From NCBI GenBank assembly GCA_013178295.1, contig JABLWW010000017.1, forward strand, positions 62,001 to 126,000: DNA of 64,000 bases. Reading direction: 5' to 3'. Numbering within the stretch: the first letter of the stretch is position 1; each line of letters begins with the position of its first letter. The position numbers and the translations under genes are program-made. This DNA is from Anaerolineae bacterium. Lineage in GTDB: Bacteria; Chloroflexota; Anaerolineae; Anaerolineales; Anaerolineaceae. The notes beneath the pieces are model-generated. The model was given only the letters and a program-made list of their open reading frames with translations. It was not told where the DNA came from and searched no databases. Below, piece after piece: positions 726 to 42,738 of the stretch.

Positions 726-2069
726 ATGGCACCAATTCAAAAACTGCCAATGCGCGAGTTGCTTGCGCATCTCAGACGTATTCAACAACAGATGCCCATG
801 TTTCTGCACGAGGTGGGGCAGAAATATGGGGATGTTGTCCTGCTCGGCCAGGGCAAATTCAGCGCCTATTTTCTCAACCATCCAGAAGCCATCGCCCATG
901 TGCTTCAGGAGAACTACCAAAACTACACCAAAAATACCATCCAGTATAACCAGCTGCGCAAGATTACCGGTTATGGCTTGTTGACCAATGACCGCGAGAC
1001 CTGGCAGCGCAACCGCCGTCTGCTTCAGCCGTCTTTTGGTCGCAGCAAACTGATGGCGCTGATACCCTTGATACAGGAGATCATCCCGCCGGTCATCCAG
1101 CGCTGGTCACAGGCGGCTGACAGCGGCACGCTGGTCAACGTTGACCAGGAGATGATGGAACTGGCGCTGCAAATAGTCAATCGTTTTCTGTTTGGGGTAG
1201 AGATACAAAGCGAAGCCAGACAGTTGACCAACGCGGTGATCACCGCCCTTGACCACCTGGTGGAGCGTGTGCGCCATCCATGGATGCCGCCGGATTCGTT
1301 TCCCACCGCTTCCAATCTGCGCAACCGCCGCGCCCTCCGCATGCTGGATGAAATTTGTCTGCGCATCATCCGCTCGGCAGAAGCCAGCCCACCCAGCGAG
1401 GAGAACCTGCTGGCTGTGCTGCTGCAAGCCCGCCAGGATGCCGGGCTGAACTTTGGGGATGTGCAGGTACGCGACGAGGTCATCACCCTGTTTATCGCCG
1501 GGCACGAGACGGTGGCATCGGCGCTGACCTGGACATGGTATCTGCTCTCGCAGAATCCGCAGTACTACCCCCGTTTGCGCGAGGAAATCAAAACCGTTCT
1601 GGCAGACCGCCCGCCCACCGAGGCGGATTACGAGCAGCTGACGCTGATTGGGCAGGTGTTTGACGAGGCTTTGCGGCTGTATCCGCCTGCCTGGATGCTC
1701 TCGCGGCGTTCGATCGCAGAGGATAAAATCATGGGGCACACCATCCCCGCCAACGCGCTGGTCATCATCAGCCCCTATGCCATCCACCGTCATCCGGCTT
1801 TCTGGCAAGACCCTGAAGCGTTTTACCCTGAGCGCTTTGCGCCGCAGACGGAAAAACCGCGCCGCTTTGCGTATATCCCCTTTGGTGGCGGACCGCGTTT
1901 GTGTATTGGCTTTCAGTTTGCCTTGATTGAGGCGCGCACCATTTTGGCGCATCTGCTGGCGCGTTTTCAGCTTTCTCTTCCGCCGGGCGCAGAGGTGCAT
2001 GTTGACCCTCTGGTCACCCTGCGTCCCAGGGGCGGGTTGTGGATGCAGGTGAAACATGCCCAATTATGA
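726..2069 (+). CDS. Cytochrome P450, probable carotenoid hydroxylase
   Basis: A 447-residue heme monooxygenase, the normal size for a soluble bacterial P450. The I-helix oxygen-binding motif AGHET lies near residue 258, the ExxR pair (EALR) near 314, and the heme loop FGGGPRLCIG near 385-394 supplies the Cys ligand. It is the first gene of the carotenoid operon and overlaps the lycopene cyclase start by 14 bp, so translational coupling is likely. That context points to ring hydroxylation of beta-carotene, as known for CYP175A1 of Thermus; the substrate is an inference. The ribosome binding site is weak. No separate ferredoxin partner gene is nearby. Confidence 0.88.
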   Translation: MAPIQKLPMRELLAHLRRIQQQMPMFLHEVGQKYGDVVLLGQGKFSAYFLNHPEAIAHVLQENYQNYTKNTIQYNQLRKITGYGLLTNDRETWQRNRRLLQPSFGRSKLMALIPLIQEIIPPVIQRWSQAADSGTLVNVDQEMMELALQIVNRFLFGVEIQSEARQLTNAVITALDHLVERVRHPWMPPDSFPTASNLRNRRALRMLDEICLRIIRSAEASPPSEENLLAVLLQARQDAGLNFGDVQVRDEVITLFIAGHETVASALTWTWYLLSQNPQYYPRLREEIKTVLADRPPTEADYEQLTLIGQVFDEALRLYPPAWMLSRRSIAEDKIMGHTIPANALVIISPYAIHRHPAFWQDPEAFYPERFAPQTEKPRRFAYIPFGGGPRLCIGFQFALIEARTILAHLLARFQLSLPPGAEVHVDPLVTLRPRGGLWMQVKHAQL

Positions 2070-3216
2070 TTATATTTTGGCAGGCGGCGGAGCGGCTGGT
2101 TTGAGCCTGGCTTATCAGCTGACCTGCGTCGAGGGGGAGAAACCTTCCATTCTCATCCTCGATTTGGACAACAAACGCAAGAACGACCGCACCTGGTGCT
2201 TCTGGACGAATGCCGCCACTGGGCTGGAGGAGGTGTATTACCGCACCTGGAAGCAGATGTGGTTTTACGGTGAGGGGTTTGAAAAGAAGATTCCGCTGGG
2301 CGACTGGCAGTACGTCATGCTGCGCGGGATTGATTTTTATGACTGGATGCGGGCGCATTTTGCCCGTTGCGGCGGGGTGGATTTTGTGCAGGCGGAGGTT
2401 GTGCGCATCGAGGATGACCCGCTTCAGCCGCGCGTGCACACCCGCGATGGGAATGTCTATGCGGCAAAGTGGGTATTCGACAGCCGCGTCCTGCCCGGCT
2501 CTGTACAAGTCGATCGCAAGCGCTATCACCTGTTGCAGCAGCACTTTTTGGGCTGGGAAGTGGAAACGGAGAAGCAGGCGTTTGACGCCGAAGCCCTCAC
2601 GCTGTTTGATTTTCGCACACCTCAGCACGGGGTGATGCGTTTTATGTACGTGCTGCCCTTCAGCCCGCAGCGGGCGCTGGTTGAATATACCCTCTTTTCC
2701 GAGAATCTTTTGCCGCAATCCGAGTATGAAACCGCGCTCAAAGAGTATCTTGCCTCTGTGGTGGGGGTTGAGCGCTATCGTGTGCTGGATGTGGAGCAAA
2801 ACCGTATCCCAATGACCGATTATCCCTTCCCGCGCCGTTTGGGCGAGCGGGTGTGGGCAATCGGCACGCTTGGCGGCAGGGTCAAGCCCTCTTCAGGGTA
2901 TGCGTTCTGGCGCATCTGGCAGGATGCGCGTCAGATGGCAGATTCGCTGCGGCGCTATGGCGACCCGACCCATGTGCATCTCTCGCCGCGCCGTTACCGC
3001 TGGTTTGATCAGGTGATGCTCAATGTGATGTACCGCCAGGGGCATCAGACCAAACGGGCGTTTACGGCGCTGTTCCGCAACAATCCCCCGCAGCGCATTT
3101 TTGGCTTTCTCAACGAAGCCAACCCCTGGTGGGAGGATATTTTGGTACTGGCTTCTTTGCCCCTGCCGCCTTTTTTGGGCGCATTTTTGCGCACGCAGAT
3201 ATTGCGCAAAATATAA
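2056..3216 (+). CDS. crtY: Lycopene cyclase, CrtY family
   Basis: A 386-residue FAD/NAD-dependent flavoprotein that closes the ends of lycopene to beta-carotene. The N-terminal dinucleotide motif [11 protein letters not shown] is at residues 9-19. Other family blocks are WTNA near 50, VFDSR near 151, FLGWEVET near 177 and the C-terminal [14 protein letters not shown], where substrate and flavin contacts are expected. It lies between the P450 and crtI, fitting a lycopene to hydroxylated beta-carotenoid route. The start ATG overlaps the end of the P450 gene. A promoter for crtI begins directly at its stop codon. Confidence 0.85.
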
Positions 3217-3259
3217 AACATTATACAAACATTGTATTTTTTAAAAGGGATGATACAAT
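3217..3259 (+). promoter_or_regulatory. crtI promoter with 11-bp direct repeats (CarH/LitR-like operator candidate)
   Basis: Two adjoining 11-mers, AACATTATACA (3217-3227) and AACATTGTATT (3228-3238), lie directly after the crtY stop. The second supplies a -35 hexamer TTGTAT (3232-3237), 16 bp before TACAAT (3254-3259). The same 11-mer recurs at two other promoters in this window (40909 and 42286). The cores TTATACA and TTGTATT resemble the nTnnACA half-sites described for CarH-family repressors; this regulator assignment is an inference. Confidence 0.6.
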
Positions 3260-3281: not shown

Positions 3282-4763
3282 ATGAAAAAAAAGATCATTG
3301 TGATTGGCAGCGGATTTGGAGGGCTTGGGGTTGCGGCGCGTTTGGCGGCGCGCGGTTTTGACGTGGAAATCTTTGAACAGCGCGACAAACCCGGCGGGCG
3401 GGCGTATGTCTATGAGATCAACGGTTTTCAGTTTGATGGCGGACCGACGGTCATCACCGCCCCGTTTATGTTTGACGATATCTTTGCTGTGGGCGGAAAG
3501 AAAACCGAAGAGTACTTCCGCCTTGTGCCGGTCAACCCGTTTTACCGCATTTTTGACCACACCGGCTATGCGTTTGACTATAACAACGATTTGCAAGCCA
3601 TGCTGGCGCAAATCGAAAAACTCAACCCGCGCGATGTGCAAGGCTATCAGCGTTTTATCACCTCTACCCGCCCCATTTTTGAGAAGGGATTTGTCCAGCT
3701 TGCTGATAAGCCCTTCCTGCATGTTACCGACATGCTCAAGATTGCCCCGGATTTGATTCGTTTGCAGTCGTATCTTTCGGTGTATGGGTATGTATCCCAG
3801 TTTCTCAAAAATGACTTTCTGCGTCAGATTTGTTCTTTTCACCCGCTGCTGGTGGGCGGCAACCCCTTTGACACCACCAGCATCTACACTCTCATTCACT
3901 ATCTGGAGCGGGAATGGGGTGTGCATTATGCCGTCGGCGGCACCGGGGCGATTGTGCGCGGGCTGGTGCGCTTTTTTGAGGACTCGGGCGGCAAACTTCA
4001 CCTCAACACCCGCGTGAGTGAGATTGTTACCGAAGGGCGCAAGGTCAAAGGCGTTCGTCTGCAGGATGGCAGCCTGCATCCTGCCGACGCGGTGGTTTCT
4101 AATGCCGATGTTGCCTTCACCTATCGTTATCTGATCCCGGCGCAGGCACGCCGAAAATACACCAATGCCCGTCTGGATGCGCTCAGATACAGTATGTCGC
4201 TGTTTGTGATTTATTTTGGCACCAAACGTCTCTACCGCGATACGCCGCTGGCGCATCACAACATCATCCTTTCCAACCGCTATAAACCGCTGTTGGAGGA
4301 TATTTTCAATAAAAAGATCCTGGCGGACGATTTCTCGCTTTATCTACACATGCCCACCCTCACCGATGCCTCAATTGCGCCGGAGGGGATGGAGAATTTT
4401 TACGTCCTGGCGCCGGTTCCGCATCTGGATGCGTCGGTGGATTGGACAACAATGGCGATTCCCTACCGCGATAAGATTTTGAAATTCCTCGAAGAGAATT
4501 ATCTGCCGGGACTGCGCGAAAACATTGTCGCCCTGCACCACATTGACCCGCTGCACTTCCGTGATGTGCTTAGCAGCTACAAGGGTGCGGCTTTTTCGGT
4601 GCAGCCGATTCTGACGCAGTCGGCGTGGTTCCGCCCGCACAATCAATCCGAAGAGTTTGACAATTTGTATTTTGTCGGGGCTGGCACCCATCCGGGGGCG
4701 GGCGTGCCGGGGGTTCTGTCTTCCTCCAAAATTGTAGATGATCTGATTACCAAGGGGGCTTGA
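3282..4763 (+). CDS. crtI: Phytoene desaturase CrtI
   Basis: A 493-residue FAD enzyme that dehydrogenates phytoene to lycopene. The start ATG at 3282 is chosen because GGAGGAATTTT precedes it and the Rossmann motif [19 protein letters not shown] then begins at once; the longer reading frame from 3129 would cross the crtY end and the promoter. Further marks are [20 protein letters not shown] near residues 38-57 and the C-terminal FAD block [16 protein letters not shown]. It is followed 13 bp later by crtB. Whether it makes three or four desaturations cannot be told; the cyclase suggests lycopene. Confidence 0.92.
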
Positions 4764-4776
4764 GCGGAGGCGTGGG

Positions 4777-5691
4777 GTGGCTGGCAGAGGGTATGCAGGG
4801 ATGGCGGGCAAAGCTGAAGTTCAGATGAATGACCCGTCCTTTGCGCAGGTGGAAGGCATCATCCGCGCCAAGTCCAAGACCTTTCACTTTGCCACAGCGC
4901 TGCTGCCGCACATCCAGCGCCGCGCGGTGCGCGCCTTATACGCCTTCTGCCGCTATACCGATGACCTGGTGGACGAACACAAGGTAACCCCCGAAGCGTT
5001 GGAGGAATGGCGTCTTCAGGCGCGCCAGCCGCCGCAGCAGCAGAACCACGCCGTGCTGCGCGCCTGGAGCATTGCCCGCCAGGTGTTTGGGGTGGATGTC
5101 CGCTATCAGGAGGAGTTGATTGACGGGGTGGCGATGGATTTGGTCAACCATAGATATCAGACCTGGGAAGAGCTGCAGGGGTACTGCTACCGGGTAGCTT
5201 CTACGGTCGGGCTGCTTTCGATGCCGATCATCGGGATGCGCGAGGGAGCAACTTTTGAGCAGGCAAAGCCTTATGCCGTCCGGCTGGGTATTGCCCTGCA
5301 GTTGACCAACATCCTGCGCGATGTCGGCGAGGATGCGCAGTTTGGGCGTGTCTATCTGCCGGAGGAAGACCTGACGGCATTCGGCTTGACGCGCGCCGAT
5401 ATTCTGGAAGGTGTCTTTGACCAGCGTTTTATTGCCCTGATGCGCTTTGAGATTGTGCGTGCCCGTGCGCTGTATGCGCAGGCGCTGCCGGGCGTTGCCA
5501 TGCTTGCACCAAAGGCGCGCCCGGCGGTGGGCGTGGCGGCGCTGCTATACCGCGCCATCCTGGATGAAATCGAAACCATCCAGTATCAGGTGTTCGGCTT
5601 GCGCGCCCATACCACCCTGTGGAAAAAGATCGCCCTGCTGCCGCGCTGTCTGCATGAGGTCAACCGTCTGCAAGCGCCGGTGGGGTCATAG
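4777..5691 (+). CDS. crtB: Phytoene synthase CrtB
   Basis: A 304-residue trans-isoprenyl diphosphate synthase of the squalene/phytoene class that joins two geranylgeranyl diphosphates. The two Asp-rich magnesium sites are YTDDLVDEH near residues 59-67 and LTNILRDVGEDAQFGRVYLP near 175-194. The start is uncertain: GTG 4777 has GGAGG six bases upstream, while ATG 4801 and ATG 4825 are alternatives, and homologues usually begin close to the MNDPSFAQ segment at 4825. It is the last gene of the carotenoid operon; no clear terminator follows. Confidence 0.9.
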   Translation: MAGRGYAGMAGKAEVQMNDPSFAQVEGIIRAKSKTFHFATALLPHIQRRAVRALYAFCRYTDDLVDEHKVTPEALEEWRLQARQPPQQQNHAVLRAWSIARQVFGVDVRYQEELIDGVAMDLVNHRYQTWEELQGYCYRVASTVGLLSMPIIGMREGATFEQAKPYAVRLGIALQLTNILRDVGEDAQFGRVYLPEEDLTAFGLTRADILEGVFDQRFIALMRFEIVRARALYAQALPGVAMLAPKARPAVGVAALLYRAILDEIETIQYQVFGLRAHTTLWKKIALLPRCLHEVNRLQAPVGS

Positions 5692-40908: not shown

Positions 40909-40948
40909 AACATTGTACAAAATAGATAAAAACCATATACTTTATACA
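40909..40948 (+). promoter_or_regulatory. MFS gene promoter with AACATTGTACA element
   Basis: AACATTGTACA (40909-40919) contains a -35 hexamer TTGTAC (40914-40919), 16 bp before TATACT (40936-40941). A half-match AACCATATACT sits 22 bp (two 11-bp steps) downstream at 40931, and TTATACA follows at 40942. It is the same 11-mer as at the crtI and PPOX promoters. Confidence 0.55.
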
Positions 40949-40994
40949 AATTATGCTAGAATAGCTTTGATATCCTATCAGGTGGTGTGAAAGA

Positions 40995-42257
40995 ATGAGA
41001 CGTTATCGTTTGTTTACGATTTTTATTATCGTTTTTATGGACATGCTGGGCTTTGGTCTGATTCTGCCTTTGCTGCCCTATTATGCCGAATCCTATGGCG
41101 CGGCGCCTGCAGTAGTGGGTTTGCTGGTGGCATCGTATGCAGCCGCGCAGCTGGTGGGTGCGCCGTTTCTGGGGCGTCTTTCAGACCGTTACGGCCGCCG
41201 CCCGATTTTGCTGTTCTCTGAGGCGGGGAGTGTGGCGGGTTTTTTGTTGATGGGTTTTGCTGACCCCCTGGGCAGAATGTTTGCCTCACTTGCTGCGCCT
41301 CAGGCAGAGAATCTCTTTGTCATCGGGGTGTTGTTTTTCAGCCGTGTGGTGGATGGGCTGACTGGCGGGAATATTACTGTGGCACAGGCATATATTGCCG
41401 ATATCACCGATGAACAAAACCGCGCCAAGAGTCTGGGGTTGATTGGGGCGGCATTTGGCTTGGGTTTCATCATTGGTCCGGCAGCGGGTGGGACACTTAG
41501 TCGTTGGGGATACAACTTTCCCGCGTTTGTTGCCGCAGCGGTCTTTTTTGCCAATTGGCTTTCGATCTTTTTCTTTCTGCCCGAGTCGCTTGCGGGTGAA
41601 CAGAAGGAGAAGGCGTTGCGGCGTCAACGCGCCCCTTTTACCCTCCAGGCACTGCTGCATGCCCTCAACAGGCCCAAAGTCGGCCCACTTCTACACATCC
41701 GTCTTTTTTACGGTTTGGCTTTTGCCACTTTTCAGACCATCTTTTCGCTCTATGCGCAGGGGATTGGGTTGAATGCGCAGACCACAGGGTATGTATTAGC
41801 TTACGTGGGTGTGCTTTCGGTGGTAGTGCAGGGGGGGCTGATCGGCATGTTGACGCGTCGTTTTCGCGATAACTGGCTGATTACTGCCGGGCTGTGGCTG
41901 ATGGCGTTCTCGCTGCTGGTGTGGGGATTTACTACAAAACTGTGGCTGTTGCTGATTATTCTGTTGCCGCTTTCGCTTGCTGGTGGTGTGTTGAATACGA
42001 TTCTCCAGAGCGCTATCAGCAAGTCGGTGCCGCCTGAGGAAATGGGGGGAATCCTGGGCATCTCGGCGTCGCTCGAGGCGATAAGCAGGGTTGTTGCGCC
42101 TTCGATTGGGGGGTATCTGATCCAGAATTTGGGTTTGTGGTCACCGGGTGTGTTTAGCGCGGCGCTGATGTTTTGGGTGGTTGGCTTTACCTATCGGCAC
42201 ATCGTTTTGCCTGCCCGCCGCGAGCGGCTGATGTTGGAGGGGCAGGGCGCGCCATGA
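40995..42257 (+). CDS. MFS transporter, TetA/drug-exporter-like
   Basis: A 420-residue, 12-helix major facilitator. Motif A GRLSDRYGRRPILLF near residue 60 and the helix-1 motif FMDMLGFGLILPLLPYY are those of TetA-type 12-TMS drug/proton antiporters; AFGLGFIIGPAAGG near 152 is the motif C exporter signature. Its promoter shares an operator-like element with carotenoid genes, so it may be induced by the same cue (light or oxidative stress). The exported compound is unknown; a link to tetracycline resistance should not be assumed. Confidence 0.88.
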   Translation: MRRYRLFTIFIIVFMDMLGFGLILPLLPYYAESYGAAPAVVGLLVASYAAAQLVGAPFLGRLSDRYGRRPILLFSEAGSVAGFLLMGFADPLGRMFASLAAPQAENLFVIGVLFFSRVVDGLTGGNITVAQAYIADITDEQNRAKSLGLIGAAFGLGFIIGPAAGGTLSRWGYNFPAFVAAAVFFANWLSIFFFLPESLAGEQKEKALRRQRAPFTLQALLHALNRPKVGPLLHIRLFYGLAFATFQTIFSLYAQGIGLNAQTTGYVLAYVGVLSVVVQGGLIGMLTRRFRDNWLITAGLWLMAFSLLVWGFTTKLWLLLIILLPLSLAGGVLNTILQSAISKSVPPEEMGGILGISASLEAISRVVAPSIGGYLIQNLGLWSPGVFSAALMFWVVGFTYRHIVLPARRERLMLEGQGAP

Positions 42258-42264
42258 GCCATAA

Positions 42265-42318
42265 AACATTATACAAACCAAATAAAACATTGTACAAAGT
42301 AGAACCATGTGGCATAAT
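42265..42318 (+). promoter_or_regulatory. PPOX-TspO promoter with two AACATT-type 11-mers
   Basis: AACATTATACA (42265-42275) and AACATTGTACA (42286-42296) are 21 bp apart on the same helix face. The second contains TTGTAC (42290-42295), 17 bp before CATAAT (42313-42318), and the start codon follows at 42352. Both 11-mers match the crtI promoter elements. Confidence 0.6.
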
Positions 42319-42351: not shown

Positions 42352-42738
42352 ATGTCTGTACTTGAACAGTTATCAAAATATCAATATCTCAACGTGGAGA
42401 CCTTTCGCAAAAGCGGGGTGGGGGTGAGAACGCCGGTCTGGTTTGTGCAGGATGGCAATACGATTTACATCCGCACCCAGGCGCAATCCGGCAAAGTCAA
42501 GCGCATCCGCAACAACCCGCAGGTGAACATCGCCCCCTGCAAGGTGGACGGCGAATTGCTCGGCGGGTGGGTGGCGGCAAAAGCCCATGAAGTTACTGAC
42601 CGGTCGGTACACCCGCAGATTGACCGCCTCTTTGACCGCAAATATGGGCTGATGAAAAAGTTTTTTGCCCTGCTTTCGGCGCTGCAAAAACGCCAATATG
42701 CCATCCTGGCAATTCAGCCGCTTGAGGAGCAGAAATGA
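42352..42738 (+). CDS. PPOX-class flavin/F420-dependent protein
   Basis: A 128-residue split-barrel protein of the pyridoxamine-phosphate-oxidase-like family, subgroup with F420 (TIGR03666-like). ATG 42352 is set by AAGGAG eight bases upstream. The pattern YLNVETFRKSGVGVRTPVWF then IYIRTQAQSGKVKRIRNNP near residues 40-60 includes the Lys/Arg cluster that binds a cofactor phosphate. It is coupled by ATGA to the TspO-like gene. cofC-cofD in this window supports F420 as cofactor. The substrate could be a biliverdin-like or quinone compound (inference). Confidence 0.78.
   Translation: MSVLEQLSKYQYLNVETFRKSGVGVRTPVWFVQDGNTIYIRTQAQSGKVKRIRNNPQVNIAPCKVDGELLGGWVAAKAHEVTDRSVHPQIDRLFDRKYGLMKKFFALLSALQKRQYAILAIQPLEEQK

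Follow-up and report, generated by a model that had tools for sequence, protein, structure and literature searches.

Whether a short word that recurs upstream of three gene sets in an Anaerolineaceae (Chloroflexota) genome of 3.95 Mb marks the operators of a B12-dependent light repressor is the question raised by the 64,000-nucleotide stretch of DNA analysed here (the window; G000:C9:62001-126000). The word precedes the carotenoid gene crtI, an MFS transporter gene and a PPOX-TspO gene pair, and a preliminary description of the stretch had tentatively assigned all three to one light or oxidative-stress regulon under a regulator of the CarH/LitR type. CarH generally sits over the target promoter in the dark, bound to adenosylcobalamin (AdoCbl), until light cuts the Co-C bond and the operator is freed (PMC9304148, PMC10442372); published operators consist of 11-bp nnnnTnnACAn repeats overlapping the -35 or -10 box (PMC9304148). 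Judged from sequence, the elements are very probably operators of the genome's own CarH-type repressor. The suspected CarH link is supported by a regulator gene with a site at its own promoter, by synteny of carH with crtI and MFS in related genera, by the 11-bp spacing of the sites, and by photolyase and heliorhodopsin genes among the putative targets in relatives.

An extended word occurs at four promoters of the genome

We assessed the specificity of the word at genomic scale. The 10-mer AACATTRTAY has 25 genome copies as compared to 18 for its reversed control, and because the control is nearly as frequent, the 10-mer was rejected as evidence. The 11-mer of the preliminary description, AACATTRTACA, occurs eight times, with five copies at the crtI, MFS, PPOX (two copies) and fasciclin-carH promoters. 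Extension to the 13-mer AACATTRTACAAA, made after the sites had been looked at, left exactly five copies in the 3.95 Mb, where Markov models of the window predict 0.13-0.15; the reversed control has no copy. This 13-mer is common to all copies save the degenerate second repeat at crtI. Rather than being scattered over random genes, which would have spoken against a CarH link, all five exact copies lie at promoters of four transcription units: one each at crtI, MFS and fasciclin-carH, and two at PPOX. The fifth copy, on another contig, is situated 88 bp upstream of a fasciclin-domain gene, behind which a carH-like gene lies on the same strand.

A chance likeness of A+T-rich promoter DNA would fit the poor enrichment of the 10-mer, but not five copies of the 13-mer where ~0.14 are expected, the sole exact copy outside the window falling at the carH unit, or the conservation of sites upstream of the same genes in other genera. 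Given the 13-mer excess and this cross-genus conservation, we rejected chance resemblance as hardly credible. Other one-mismatch copies in the genome are mostly intragenic or lack a consistent target and are not claimed as sites; a tandem repeat upstream of a GntR/FCD gene (G000:C20:6236) is regarded as probable chance.

The genome encodes a CarH-type regulator with a site at its own promoter

The CarH/LitR gene with a B12-binding domain and a site at its own promoter, which the preliminary description had called for, is present outside the window, in the fasciclin-carH unit on contig C3. The MerR helix-turn-helix (PF13411/PF00376), B12-binding_2 (PF02607) and B12-binding (PF02310) domains of its product all score above cut-off, and its best solved relatives are Thermus thermophilus CarH (TtCarH) structures (3whp, 5c8d; E about 3e-35). 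The top NCBIfam model is the CarH equivalog NF052513 (E 3.6e-46; 157.6 bits, under the cut-off of 400). Alignment to TtCarH revealed that the AdoCbl-contact residues W131, E141 and H142 and the lower ligand H177 are kept (within GEAW, SEH and EQHEIG). Searched with the DNA-binding domain of this CarH, the genome gave no further CarH-like protein.

The fasciclin-carH operator comprises three ACA boxes spaced exactly 11 bp apart, AATACA-AACATTATACA-AAATATATACA, the arrangement reported for the TtCarH operator with its three nnnnTnnACAn repeats, one of them over the -35 box (PMC9304148). In addition, a one-mismatch copy, AACATGATACAAA, lies directly upstream of carH (C3:176224-176236). At the other end of the gene, an open reading frame on the opposite strand ends just past the carH 3' end (L035 597-1394; G000 C3) and has, by eye, a J-domain and a CheW-like domain.

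Sites and 11-bp spacing recur in related genera

Of 36 other genomes of the family that were searched, 18, all from different genera, have a carH orthologue (40-53% identity), and a search of named relatives gave only one real match, an Anaerolinea thermophila metagenome-assembled genome (MAG). About ten related genera have carH next to a paralogue, carH2, in a cluster with crtI-crtB; in several of them an MFS gene, with 51-54% identity to that of the window, and an SRPBCC-like gene lie between carH2 and crtI. Though carH is unlinked from crtI and MFS in the window genome, these clusters thus tie the carotenoid and MFS genes of the window genetically to carH. With carotenoid genes and the regulator's own promoter among the putative targets, and with this crt linkage, the set has the make-up expected of a CarH regulon, as far as sequence can tell.

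Exact copies of the 13-mer in relatives lie upstream of carH (G004, G025), carH2 (G020), TspO (G001, G004) and fasciclin genes (G003, G021, G026). Within 300 bp upstream, sites with at most one mismatch precede 7 of 20 carH genes, as compared to 0.017 in shuffles, and 3 of 13 TspO genes in carH-positive genomes (0.0 in shuffles); the TspO count in carH-negative genomes is 2 of 15, both in incomplete MAGs. The fasciclin count of this comparison includes a locus chosen by its motif (L138) and is to be read as one lower.

Inspecting the regions ahead of carH, TspO, fasciclin, MFS and crtI homologues in carH-positive genomes, 66 in all, revealed that same-strand TnnACA pairs peak at exactly 11 bp (24 pairs vs 0.5 in dinucleotide shuffles), with 21 pairs from ten genomes left when this genome and L138 are set aside. 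A genome-wide search for TRTACA-N5-TRTACA, which is blind to the flanks of the 13-mer, returned 39 matches in the 19 carH-positive family genomes as compared to 7 for the control, and 12 as compared to 10 in the 18 carH-negative ones. The matches recover the TspO, fasciclin and carH promoters. Moreover, two heliorhodopsin genes (PF18761; L271 in G033, L287 in G018) sit directly downstream of tandem 11-bp TRTACA repeats and a third (L145 in G030) directly downstream of an exact 13-mer, the three belonging to different genera, and the start of a DNA photolyase gene (L294 in G041) adjoins tandem TGTACA-type repeats. On the opposite side of the latter repeats, a TspO homologue lies ~1.3 kb off. 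Other recurrent candidate targets are an alpha/beta hydrolase in three genera (L254, L268, L285), as well as an ABC permease (L134, L260) and a DegV protein (L146, L295), each in two.

Imperfect putative operators in the window

With respect to the window itself, all five copies listed in the preliminary description were located where it had put them (3217, 3228, 40909, 42265 and 42286; Table 1), and the spacing it gave, 11 bp at crtI and 21 bp at PPOX, is right. The three promoters are unlinked, as it had claimed, in the sense of belonging to separate operons, but those of MFS and PPOX are 1.4 kb apart.

Table 1 Positions of sites, candidate promoter elements and genes (window coordinates unless a contig is given)
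Feature	Position	Strand	Remarks
CarH-type direct repeat AACATTATACA upstream of crtI	3217..3227	+	TnnACA-conforming; exact 13-mer copy
Second, degenerate repeat AACATTGTATT at crtI	3228..3238	+	exactly 11 bp past the 3217 repeat
CarH-type repeat AACATTGTACA upstream of MFS	40909..40919	+	includes -35-like TGTACA
Looser second element TACTTTATACAAA at MFS	40938..40950	+	2 mismatches; 29-bp offset to the 40909 repeat; out of 11-bp register
CarH-type repeat AACATTATACA upstream of PPOX	42265..42275	+	exact 13-mer copy
CarH-type repeat AACATTGTACA upstream of PPOX	42286..42296	+	21 bp downstream of the 42265 copy; includes -35-like TGTACA
Candidate -10 TACAAT, crtI promoter	3254..3259	+	16 bp past TTGTAT
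Candidate -10 TATACT, MFS promoter	40936..40941	+	sigma-70 consensus scan
Candidate -10 CATAAT, PPOX promoter	42313..42318	+	sigma-70 consensus scan
crtI (phytoene desaturase-type amine oxidase)	3282..4763	+	Pfam PF01593
crtB (squalene/phytoene synthase)	4777..5691	+	Pfam PF00494
MFS transporter, DHA1/Tet-like	40995..42257	+	homologues within carH-carH2-MFS-crtI-crtB cluster of related genera
PPOX-class F420-dependent oxidoreductase	42352..42738	+	TIGR03666, above cut-off
TspO-fold (predicted) membrane protein, 251 aa	42735..43490	+	start overlaps PPOX stop by 4 bases
carH, 323 aa MerR + B12-binding protein	C3:175216-176187	-	domain matches

Several observations weigh against reading these elements as CarH operators. 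The full tandem 11-bp nnnnTnnACAn arrangement is seen at fasciclin-carH; crtI has it in part, with one good and one degenerate repeat, the PPOX copies are spaced by 21 rather than 22 bp, and MFS has one good repeat, its second copy lying at 29 bp. By themselves, the window sites would not qualify as textbook CarH operators. Their imperfect repeats do not exclude CarH, however, because in Myxococcales binding extends to operators in which one or two repeats are good (PMC9304148). The -35 assignment is likewise weak. The TTGTAY put forward as the -35 box shares only TTG with TTGACA; at MFS and PPOX, a sigma-70 consensus scan picks instead the neighbouring hexamer TGTACA, which holds the TnnACA of the repeat, 16 bp from TATACT and CATAAT, respectively. 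The idea of an overlapping -35 element is thus right only in part, with TGTACA as a candidate box at these two promoters; the scan returned no match at crtI, and a sigma-70 reading of that promoter is not supported. As for the regulator, C3 CarH has Tyr at the position of TtCarH His132 and reads FEQH at GxxH, with Phe in place of Gly.

Further contrary points come from the relatives. Recognisable copies are rare upstream of crtI (1/12) and MFS (1/7) in carH-positive genomes, in the case of crtI partly because the gene sits inside the carH cluster. The exact 13-mer occurs nine times in the 18 carH-negative genomes, some of them incomplete assemblies, as compared to two for the control. In one relative that is 99% complete (G003), an exact site that has a partner at 11-bp spacing lies upstream of a fasciclin gene (L132; C28:111511-111523) and no CarH-like protein was found; there, another regulator may share the site specificity.

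This site without a detectable CarH, along with the overlap of the word with a possible -35 box at three promoters, might suggest a promoter element recognised by an alternative sigma factor, or a site of another regulator, instead of a CarH operator. A sigma element, however, does not fit the 11-bp direct-repeat periodicity, the occurrence of sites that face either way with respect to the gene (e.g. at carH of G025, G012 and G021), the variable distance to the start codon, or the restriction of the tandem-site excess to carH-positive genomes. We rejected the sigma-factor element on these grounds and consider this explanation as a whole very unlikely. The two PPOX repeats also form a consensus-like minus-strand promoter (TGTACA-17-TATAAT, 42268-42296) facing the MFS gene.

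Probable light sensing by a CarH that lacks His132

The substitutions in C3 CarH lend themselves to an alternative that accepts CarH operators and differs in the signal: having lost His132 and the GxxH glycine, both kept by the canonical CarH2 of relatives, a lone CarH1-type protein could respond to B12 or redox state and hardly or not at all to light. Position 132 is Tyr in 12/15 proteins of the CarH1 clade and the GxxH glycine is present in 0/15, whereas most CarH2-clade proteins keep both residues. In TtCarH, the tetramer of the H132A variant largely persists in light (PMC10442372), and the present genome yielded a single CarH-like DNA-binding domain. The full light signature of SignatureFinder (PMC11796333) is incomplete in C3 CarH, with GxxW, EH and GxxxP present and FEQH for GxxH. 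Against this, W131, E141, H142 and H177 are retained, position 132 is Arg in CtMerR and Tyr in AbDPcob, two relatives that do respond to light (PMC11796333), and photolyase and heliorhodopsin among the relatives' sites point to light. The missing glycine would weaken the case for light sensing rather than that for CarH ancestry. A weak or lost light response appears rather unlikely to us, and the repressor is probably light-responsive in this species.

Genes beside the sites

The names given to the genes in the preliminary description are sound, as indicated by Pfam and NCBIfam profile matches and, for the TspO-like protein, by a fold match. crtI has orthologues of 65-75% identity in related genera, and crtB, 13 bp past crtI, is presumably on one transcript with it. 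Upstream of crtI, within 726-3216, lie cytochrome P450 and lycopene cyclase genes, and no site was seen upstream of the P450 gene. The MFS protein scores far under the curated Tet cut-offs. The TspO-like protein matched nothing in Pfam and NCBIfam searches, so that sequence models do not place it in the TspO/MBR family. Its AlphaFold model (pLDDT 92.8) has bacterial TSPO as the best solved folds (Foldseek probability 0.97; TMt 0.65-0.69), with weak E-values of 0.8 and up, and this modelled structure suggests a TSPO fold.

Comparison with known CarH systems

CarH (LitR) of T. thermophilus resembles the present system in combining a MerR helix-turn-helix with B12-binding domains, in the four AdoCbl-related residues kept here, in 11-bp nnnnTnnACAn repeats over a -35 box, which here is a candidate one, and in having carotenoid genes as targets, putative ones here. 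In T. thermophilus and Myxococcus the -35 box lies within a repeat, and TnnACA likewise gives the -35-like TGTACA at MFS and PPOX. Unlike T. thermophilus CarH, the protein described here has Tyr for His132 and no GxxH glycine, its PPOX and MFS repeats are not cleanly tandem, and its putative regulon takes in PPOX-TspO, MFS and fasciclin. Bacillus megaterium CarH also uses tandem 11-bp repeats, some of which may be degenerate and which may overlap the -35 or -10 box (PMC9304148), but there are four of them, as opposed to one to three recognisable repeats per promoter here. Linkage of carH to a crt cluster, seen in relatives of this genome, and the presence of paralogues are shared with Myxococcales CarH/CarA, whereas the partner genes differ and carH and crtI are not linked in the genome studied here. 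Finally, CtMerR and the photocobilins have a residue other than His at 132 (Arg, Gln or Tyr) and are light-responsive (PMC11796333); unlike C3 CarH, CtMerR keeps the GxxH signature, and photocobilins are not MerR regulators.

A putative B12-dependent photoprotection regulon

For C3 CarH we infer direct binding, B12 loading and a light response. In the mechanism we propose, AdoCbl-loaded CarH would oligomerise in the dark and bind tandem nnnnTnnACAn repeats overlapping the promoters, and the bound repressor would block transcription of crtI-crtB, the MFS exporter gene, PPOX-TspO and its own fasciclin-carH unit. Light, or loss of AdoCbl, would break the complex, so that the four units would be switched on together as a photoprotection response.

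CarH regulons are already known, and what is new, and well supported, is a member in Anaerolineaceae. Its unusual features are the putative targets, namely TspO-like, PPOX, MFS and fasciclin genes here and heliorhodopsin and photolyase genes in relatives, and a diverged CarH1 without CarH2. A literature search returned no paper in which CarH is named along with heliorhodopsin, or with both Anaerolineae and carotenoid. We lean slightly towards a conserved Anaerolineaceae B12-photoreceptor regulon that joins carotenoid genes to TspO, PPOX, fasciclin, photolyase and heliorhodopsin, under a diverged CarH1 acting alone in some species and beside a canonical CarH2 in others; on this view, light would induce heliorhodopsin as part of a photoprotection programme that depends on B12. 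The finding predicts that mostly heterotrophic Chloroflexota run such a programme via a B12 light repressor with a checkable operator, and it offers regulatory partners for genes of unclear role, including those for heliorhodopsin, TspO-like and fasciclin-domain proteins. A natural CarH without His132 could, moreover, show whether light sensing depends on the bis-His switch.
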